A stretch of DNA of 59,718 bases from Promethearchaeota archaeon. GTDB taxonomy: Archaea > Asgardarchaeota > Thorarchaeia > Thorarchaeales > Thorarchaeaceae. Position 1 is the stretch's first letter; each line of letters begins with the position of its first letter. A program made the position numbers and the translations under genes. A model generated the notes under the pieces. The model searched no databases. It worked only from the letters and a program-made list of their open reading frames with translations, and was not told the origin of the DNA. The stretch covers positions 1-59,718 of the forward strand of contig JALVPN010000217.1 in assembly GCA_027031765.1 (NCBI GenBank). The letters run 5' to 3'. Below are positions 10,793 to 37,495 of the stretch, one piece after another.

Positions 10793-10931
10793 CACAACTT
10801 GCACCTTCAACATAGATATACATGGAGTAGGATGGTTGAGGATACTCGTATGTGGTGGTGCTTAGCCTTGTCGGTCACGCAGTCCGCGGCGTGCCTTTTT
10901 AAGAAGGGGAGTGGCACCTCAGGTGATCCTT

Positions 10932-12134
10932 ATGACAGCCCTCAAGGAGTACGTAGAGGGAAAGGTGACCTTCGTTGGCCCGGACATCGACCACTATACG
11001 GACAGTGCTGGACAGCCGACAGCATCCCTCCCGGTGTTCTACAACCCGCGGATGGCGGTCAACCGTGACTTTTCAGTCCTCTTCCTCACCACATACATGC
11101 GTGACAGAGACATAACTCGCATCTGCGAGCCCCTTGCGGGGACGGGAATCCGGACGCTCCGCTATCTAGTTGAGTGCCCCGGGGACTTCAGCGCAGTGAT
11201 GTTTGATGCGAACCCGCTTGCTGTAGAAGTGGCGCGCAAGAACGTCCAACTCCAGCGACTTGAGGGGCGGGCGAGGGTGATTCACGGGGATGCAAAGCTG
11301 CTCCTGTTGACAGAATCGCGTGAGAGGAGGTTCGACTTTGTCGACATCGACCCCTTCGGGTCACCAACACCATATCTCAACGCGGCGATACAGTCAATCA
11401 GGCCACGCGAGGGACTGATTGGCATCACAGCCACAGATATGCCGGTCCTGTGCGGAGTCTACCCACATGTAGCCCTCCGAAAGTATGGTGGCCTCTCCAT
11501 GCGCACACCAGTGACTCATGAGATTGCACTCAGGCTCCTAGTCCACAGGGTGTACCATGTTGCAGGGATGAATGACTTCTCGGTACGATTGCTGGCGTCT
11601 CTCAGTACCGACCACTACGTCAGGATATGGATGAGTGTCCGGCGTGAGAAGCATGTGGCAAACCGCCAGACAAGAGATATTGGGGTTGTCCTCTACTGTC
11701 CCGGGTGCCAAGCAGTACAGGTACGGAGCATACAGGATTTGGCCCGCCAGGACACATTCGAGCACGAAACACCCGAGTGTAGACAGGAGGCGCGGATAGC
11801 GGGGCCACTCTGGACAGGCCCGCTGTTCGACAGGCACTTCATGCAGAGTGCGGAAAAGGCAATGACCAAGGGTGCCTTTGAGTTCACGAGGAGGACACAC
11901 AGGCTGTTCGACCGTATGCTTGCCGAGTGCCAACACACACAGTATCCATTCTATGACGTCCATGTGCTGTGTGATATGCGTGGACTGAGCCCACCAGCTA
12001 TTGAGGACGTAGTGACTGCGCTCGTAGAACAGGGTTACCTAGCCGCTAGGACCCATATCAGACCGACTGGAATCCGCACAAATGCGACTGCGGGGGCAGT
12101 CGGAAAGATTATTGAAGAAATATCCAGGGGGTGA
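10932..12134 (+). CDS. trm1: tRNA (guanine(26)-N2)-dimethyltransferase Trm1
   Basis: It methylates G26 of tRNA with S-adenosylmethionine. The class I methyltransferase core shows EPLAGTGIR, VMFDANPLA and the catalytic DPFGSP motif, which is diagnostic of the family. The C-terminal part has a zinc-binding pair of cysteine motifs (CPGC near residue 257 and a CR further on) followed by a winged-helix-like domain. The ATG at 10932 is preferred over the first possible start at 10911, because AGGTGATCC precedes it and a TATA box (CTTTTTAAG, about 10894-10902) lies about 30 bases upstream. It forms an operon with the downstream rlmE-like gene, six bases away. Confidence 0.95.
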   Translation: MTALKEYVEGKVTFVGPDIDHYTDSAGQPTASLPVFYNPRMAVNRDFSVLFLTTYMRDRDITRICEPLAGTGIRTLRYLVECPGDFSAVMFDANPLAVEVARKNVQLQRLEGRARVIHGDAKLLLLTESRERRFDFVDIDPFGSPTPYLNAAIQSIRPREGLIGITATDMPVLCGVYPHVALRKYGGLSMRTPVTHEIALRLLVHRVYHVAGMNDFSVRLLASLSTDHYVRIWMSVRREKHVANRQTRDIGVVLYCPGCQAVQVRSIQDLARQDTFEHETPECRQEARIAGPLWTGPLFDRHFMQSAEKAMTKGAFEFTRRTHRLFDRMLAECQHTQYPFYDVHVLCDMRGLSPPAIEDVVTALVEQGYLAARTHIRPTGIRTNATAGAVGKIIEEISRG

Positions 12135-16490: not shown

Positions 16491-16598
16491 TGGTGGGCCG
16501 GACGAGATTTGAACTCGCGATCCCTTGGACCCAAACCAAGGATCAGTTTGGTGGGGCCATGGACACGCAGCCCCAATACCAAGCTAGACCACCGACCC
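16491..16598 (-). tRNA. tRNA-Pro (TGG) with a 31-base D-loop intron
   Basis: The mature tRNA has acceptor GGGTCGG/CCGGCCC, anticodon arm CTTGG-TTTGGGT-CCAAG (anticodon TGG), T arm GCGAG-TTCAAAT-CTCGT, discriminator A and encoded CCA. An extra 31 bases (plus-strand 16546-16576) sit after A21 in the D-loop. Around them a bulge-helix-bulge folds perfectly: central helix UUGG/CCAA, inner helix UGGGGC/GCCCCA, bulges UAU and ACU cut after their second base. Removal gives AGCTTGGTA-TGAT and a 77-base tRNA. A TATA box (GTTAAATT, 16629-16636, minus strand) lies upstream. Confidence 0.93.
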
Positions 16599-16628: not shown

Positions 16629-16636
16629 AATTTAAC
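16629..16636 (-). promoter_or_regulatory. TATA box for tRNA-Pro
   Basis: GTTAAATT on the minus strand, 31-38 bases before the tRNA 5' end, the same spacing as at the tRNA-Trp gene. Confidence 0.5.
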
Positions 16637-37387: not shown

Positions 37388-37495
37388 GCCCCAGTAGCTC
37401 AGACAGGTTAGATCGCCTCCTTGGTAAGGAGGAAGATGCGACCTGATTTCCAGATTGCAGCCGAATCGCGGGTTCAAATCCCGCCTGGGGCTCCA
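37388..37495 (+). tRNA. tRNA-Thr (GGT) with a 30-base variable-loop intron
   Basis: Acceptor GCCCCAG/CTGGGGC, anticodon arm CCTCC-TTGGTAA-GGAGG (anticodon GGT), T arm GCGGG-TTCAAAT-CCCGC, discriminator T, encoded CCA. Thirty bases (37436-37465) interrupt the variable loop; removing them leaves a normal five-base loop AAGTC. The intron forms a nine-pair hairpin with one mismatch (UGCGACCUG with CAGAUUGCA), and both cuts fall after the second base of 3-base bulges (AGA, AAU), four bases apart as expected. The central helix has only two of four pairs. The D-stem has an odd C11-U24 mismatch. Confidence 0.9.

Follow-up and report, generated by a model that had tools for sequence, protein, structure and literature searches.

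The whole 59,718-nucleotide stretch analysed here (the window) belongs to a 2.95-Mb draft genome of an Asgard archaeon (G000; 229 contigs, 95% complete). Its minus strand carries a tRNA-Pro(UGG) precursor that extends from G1 at 16598 to the discriminator A73 at 16494 and is followed by an encoded 3' CCA (16491-16493). The gene scored 41.5 bits against the Rfam tRNA model in the genome search and 88.4 bits against a Pro-specific model. A possible TATA-like box (TTAAAT, 16630-16635, minus strand) was recognized by eye approximately 35 bases upstream of the tRNA. The gene for Trm1, a tRNA guanine dimethyltransferase, is located in the same window (10911-12134, plus strand). ARAGORN detected no tRNA in the unspliced gene; therefore, the plain ARAGORN scan of the window gave no tRNA at this locus. 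An Rfam search of the window only, at gathering thresholds, did not list tRNA-Pro(UGG), but the whole-genome search did.

On the minus strand, positions 16598-16494 read GGGTCGGTGGTCTAGCTTGGTA, the intron TTGGGGCTGCGTGTCCATGGCCCCACCAAAC, and TGATCCTTGGTTTGGGTCCAAGGGATCGCGAGTTCAAATCTCGTCCGGCCCA, and CCA follows. The intron is the reverse complement of 16546-16576. It is 31 nt long and lies between A21 (16577) and U22 (16545), which is exactly where the preliminary description had placed an insert. That description also regarded the tRNA as normal apart from these 31 bases and, indeed, all of the stems outside the insert are intact and CCA is encoded. It further proposed that removal of the insert gives a standard D-arm. 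The spliced form is recognized by ARAGORN as a standard tRNA-Pro(tgg), and intron-less relatives possess the joined form; thus, removal restores a standard tRNA, as is expected of an archaeal BHB intron. The intron boundary is ambiguous by one base, because a U opens the intron and a U also reopens the exon, and comparison alone is compatible with both 21/22 and 22/23. In BHB motifs, the cut falls after the second base of the bulge. The intron is therefore assigned to 21/22. The D-loop insert itself is supported by the fitted Pro genes and by covariation among relatives. The site thus lies outside the canonical 37/38 position, as had been claimed.

In the predicted fold, UUGG of exon 1 (16579-16582) pairs with CCAA at the end of the intron (16548-16551) to form a 4-bp central helix. 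Two 3-nt bulges, UAU (16576-16578) and ACU (16545-16547), flank this helix at the exon-intron borders, and the BHB rule predicts cuts at UA/U and AC/U, respectively (all on the minus strand). Within the insert, UGGGGC and GCCCCA form an inner hairpin. Ensemble folding gave probabilities of 0.9-1.0 for the central pairs and of 1.0 for the inner pairs except for the first (0.45), which can slip. The D-stem serves as the outer helix with a probability of approximately 0.9, across an unpaired UAGC on the 5' side. Because this UAGC separates the D-stem from the rest of the motif, the strict form with a continuous outer helix (hBHBh') is not formed, and the motif is a relaxed BHB. The preliminary description of a perfect BHB was accordingly right about UUGG/CCAA and the bulges UAU and ACU, but the word "perfect" was slightly generous. 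Relaxed BHB forms also occur among known archaeal introns (PMC3978253). When the insert was shuffled 20,000 times with its dinucleotides preserved, only 6 of the resulting sequences yielded a 4-bp central helix and a 5-bp inner helix in the same register. When the BHB template was slid over both strands of the window, one of the 119,334 placements fitted.

To compare the site among relatives, 47 genomes of the same family were searched, and their Pro genes were fitted for intron position (locus L169 was left out). An insert of 28-32 nt occupies 21/22 in one or another of the Pro genes (UGG, CGG, or GGG) of G003, G006, G011, G013, G014, G021, G023, G027, G029, G032, G036, G060, G061, and G062. 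In Pro(UGG) of G002, G007, G016, G028, G031, G033, G035, G061, G062, and G068, the D-loop insert is shifted by one extra D-loop base. Some Pro genes of the family have introns at 37/38, 58/59, or 59/60, instead of or besides the D-loop insert. Empty sites are present in the same family as well: intron-less Pro genes, for example in G022, G025, and G028, have directly joined exons, and intron-less relatives match the precursor as two abutting segments (1-23 and 54-108). A pattern search for tRNA-Pro with a D-loop insert retrieved 19 public stretches, 17 labelled Candidatus Thorarchaeota and two labelled Candidatus Lokiarchaeota; G000 is therefore most likely a member of the Thorarchaeota group of the Asgard archaea.

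The 21/22 inserts in other genera mostly retain the central helix. Its least conserved pair is the fourth, in which U faces A or G or, in three rows, is unpaired. In an alignment of 11 distinct 21/22 stem-loops, 86.8% of the cells are paired under the BHB structure, and all seven inner pairs have changed on both sides. The covariation score was 0.481, compared with 0.182 in shuffles (none of 500 reached 0.481), and slid structures scored no higher than 0.142; the sequences were trimmed to two arms before alignment, which favours the structure, and the slid controls carry an equal bias.

Three Pro genes were found in G000 with the Pro model at E values up to 1. In addition to Pro(UGG), these are Pro(CGG), which has a related insert at 21/22 (contig C40, 52611-52716; Pro model and intron fitting), and Pro(GGG), which has one insert at 37/38 and another in the T loop (C40, 79327-79460; Pro model, with the second intron re-read by eye). 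A second intact Pro(UGG) gene, the finding that would have contradicted the intron, was not detected in this approximately 95% complete draft by the same search. Decoding of CCA codons should require the UGG anticodon; therefore, splicing of the Pro(UGG) transcript is presumably essential, with the proviso that the assembly may miss approximately 5% of the genome. No other copy of the Pro(UGG) intron with three or fewer mismatches was found in G000.

A search with PF01974 identified two splicing endonuclease genes in G000, on the separate contigs C38 and C40 (loci L036 and L037). By sequence, the C38 protein resembles catalytic endonuclease subunits from archaea (best E value, 1.4e-33). It keeps the catalytic His, at which the otherwise near-identical chain 3ajv_B has alanine, and Tyr and Lys are located at the expected catalytic positions, which completes the Tyr-His-Lys set. 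This alpha gene is apparently cut at its start by the contig end. A Lys of the C38 protein also aligns to position 44 of chain 3p1z_B, within a region that we take to be the N-terminal stretch holding the crenarchaeal loop lysine. The C40 protein has Thr in place of the catalytic His of alpha and therefore looks like the structural beta subunit; a catalytic subunit combined with such a partner is the arrangement that processes introns at sites other than 37/38. An RtcB ligase is also encoded (E value, 1.3e-177). Endonucleases of the alpha-beta type, which have been described from crenarchaea, thaumarchaea, and Nanoarchaeum (PMC3218864), cleave relaxed BHB introns, and this ability has been linked to the lysine-bearing loop (PMC6379350). 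The two G000 subunits may assemble into an enzyme of this type with a corresponding cutting specificity.

We conclude with high confidence that the insert is a splicing-endonuclease-dependent BHB intron at 21/22 in the sole detected tRNA-Pro(UGG) gene of this Asgard archaeon of the Thorarchaeota family. The relatives, the covariation of the hairpin, the lack of a detected second copy, and the splicing genes all support the original reading of a D-loop intron in tRNA-Pro(TGG). In the proposed pathway, the primary transcript would fold so that the exon UUGG pairs with the intron CCAA, while the intron forms its own hairpin. The two-subunit endonuclease would then cleave UA/U and AC/U within the 3-nt bulges, and RtcB would ligate A21 to U22 to give a standard tRNA-Pro(UGG) with its encoded CCA. 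The predicted spliced junction joins AGCUUGGUA to UGAUCCUUGG, and the predicted junction of the circular intron joins CCAAAC to UUGGGG. The analysis establishes the sequence, the predicted fold, the precise presence or absence of the insert among relatives, the covariation, and the enzyme genes; transcription, cutting, and ligation of the precursor are inferred.

Three other explanations were weighed against the intron. In the first, the gene is a pseudogene in decay that has received the 31 bases by chance, and an intact Pro(UGG) gene elsewhere provides the function. Such a copy could have escaped the draft, which is approximately 95% complete, but the Pro-specific model gave no other Pro(UGG) gene at E values up to 1, the stems and the encoded CCA are intact, and several genera occupy the same site with compensatory changes; decay is thus very improbable. 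Slightly more improbable still is that the mature tRNA retains the 31 bases and has an enlarged D loop with a hairpin. In favour of this idea, the insert folds into a stable hairpin and is located in a loop. However, the conserved parts are those of the BHB, namely the exon-paired central helix and the 3-nt bulges, and a hairpin that stayed in the tRNA would have no need of them; relatives without the insert have a normal D arm, and G000 has the genes for splicing enzymes.

An assembly error or chimera at the locus is conceivable in a draft of many contigs, but public genomes that were assembled independently have homologous inserts at this site, and Pro(CGG) of G000, on another contig, carries one as well. 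We consider such an artefact extremely improbable.

The two inserts at 21/22 in G000 resemble each other, with an identity of 0.75 between Pro(UGG) and Pro(CGG) (shuffle p = 0.004). The corresponding identities are 0.71-0.77 in genus g4 and 0.77-0.80 between G027 and the g3/g6 forms, whereas values between lineages are mostly 0.48-0.65, although g4 with g7 reaches 0.77. The greater likeness within than between lineages may mean that introns were copied from one isoacceptor gene to another or that these genes underwent gene conversion, a lead drawn from a few short sequences. The 21/22 introns of the family may therefore have been copied or homogenised between tRNA-Pro genes, a possibility that we hold tentatively and lean slightly against. 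If it is true, the patchy presence and the exact empty sites would be snapshots of intron gain or loss.

Inserts are frequent in other tRNA genes of G000. At least 20 of the 38 detected genes have them, many outside 37/38; this lower bound was obtained by script and by eye from loci L001-L035 and L116-L120. Besides Pro-TGG and Pro-CGG, Ala-GGC has a D-loop insert. Variable-region inserts are present in Lys-CTT, Thr-GGT, and Leu-TAG, and inserts in the T stem or loop are present in Gly-CCC, Tyr, Lys-TTT, Thr-CGT, Val-GAC, Ser-GCT, Asn, and Pro-GGG. The tRNA-Thr(GGT) gene lies in the window (37388-37492, plus strand) and is missed by ARAGORN; its variable-region insert of approximately 30 nt is apparently a non-canonical intron. 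The T-loop inserts of Pro-GGG (L116) and Tyr (L035) have GGGGCTCCCC and GGGACA in common. These elements are shared between different tRNAs, and the two inserts thus look like copies of a single intron that passed from one tRNA gene to the other.

The preliminary description implied that the intron was novel, which is not supported. Archaeal introns at 20/21, 22/23, 25/26, and other positions have already been listed, and introns in the D-arm rather than at 37/38 are thus familiar (PMC4090602). Non-canonical introns of Asgard archaea have also been published: in three genomes described in 2024, 92-95% of the tRNA genes were interrupted, often at non-canonical positions (PMC11291895). Therefore, the Pro(UGG) intron is genuine and of an already known type, and this single case confirms the existing picture rather than changing it. 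It adds a clean D-loop intron with comparative support, together with a predicted two-subunit splicing endonuclease, in the Asgard archaea, which are relatives of eukaryotes. Occupied and empty versions of the 21/22 site also occur among close relatives in the family, and they can serve studies of intron gain, loss, and copying.

Among the closest counterparts are the tRNA-Pro D-loop introns that other Thorarchaeota genomes have in the same gene, at the same site, and with the same BHB as G000. However, their sequences have strongly diverged, and in some of these genomes, introns at 37/38 or in the T arm replace or accompany them. The Atabeyarchaeia and Freyarchaeia are likewise Asgard archaea with many, often non-canonical introns and several per gene, but they form a different Asgard group, and the 92-95% of interrupted genes given above for the Asgard genomes compares with at least 20 of the 38 detected in G000 (PMC11291895). 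The non-canonical introns of Thermoproteales and other Crenarchaeota are also defined by the BHB and located outside 37/38, including D-arm sites such as 20/21, 22/23, and 25/26, and these organisms combine a broad-specificity alpha-beta endonuclease with introns that resemble one another in different tRNA genes, among which they have spread (PMC4090602, PMC4033280, PMC6379350). G000 differs from them in that the host is an Asgard archaeon and in that exactly 21/22 is absent from the short list of positions in PMC4090602, which ends with "etc."
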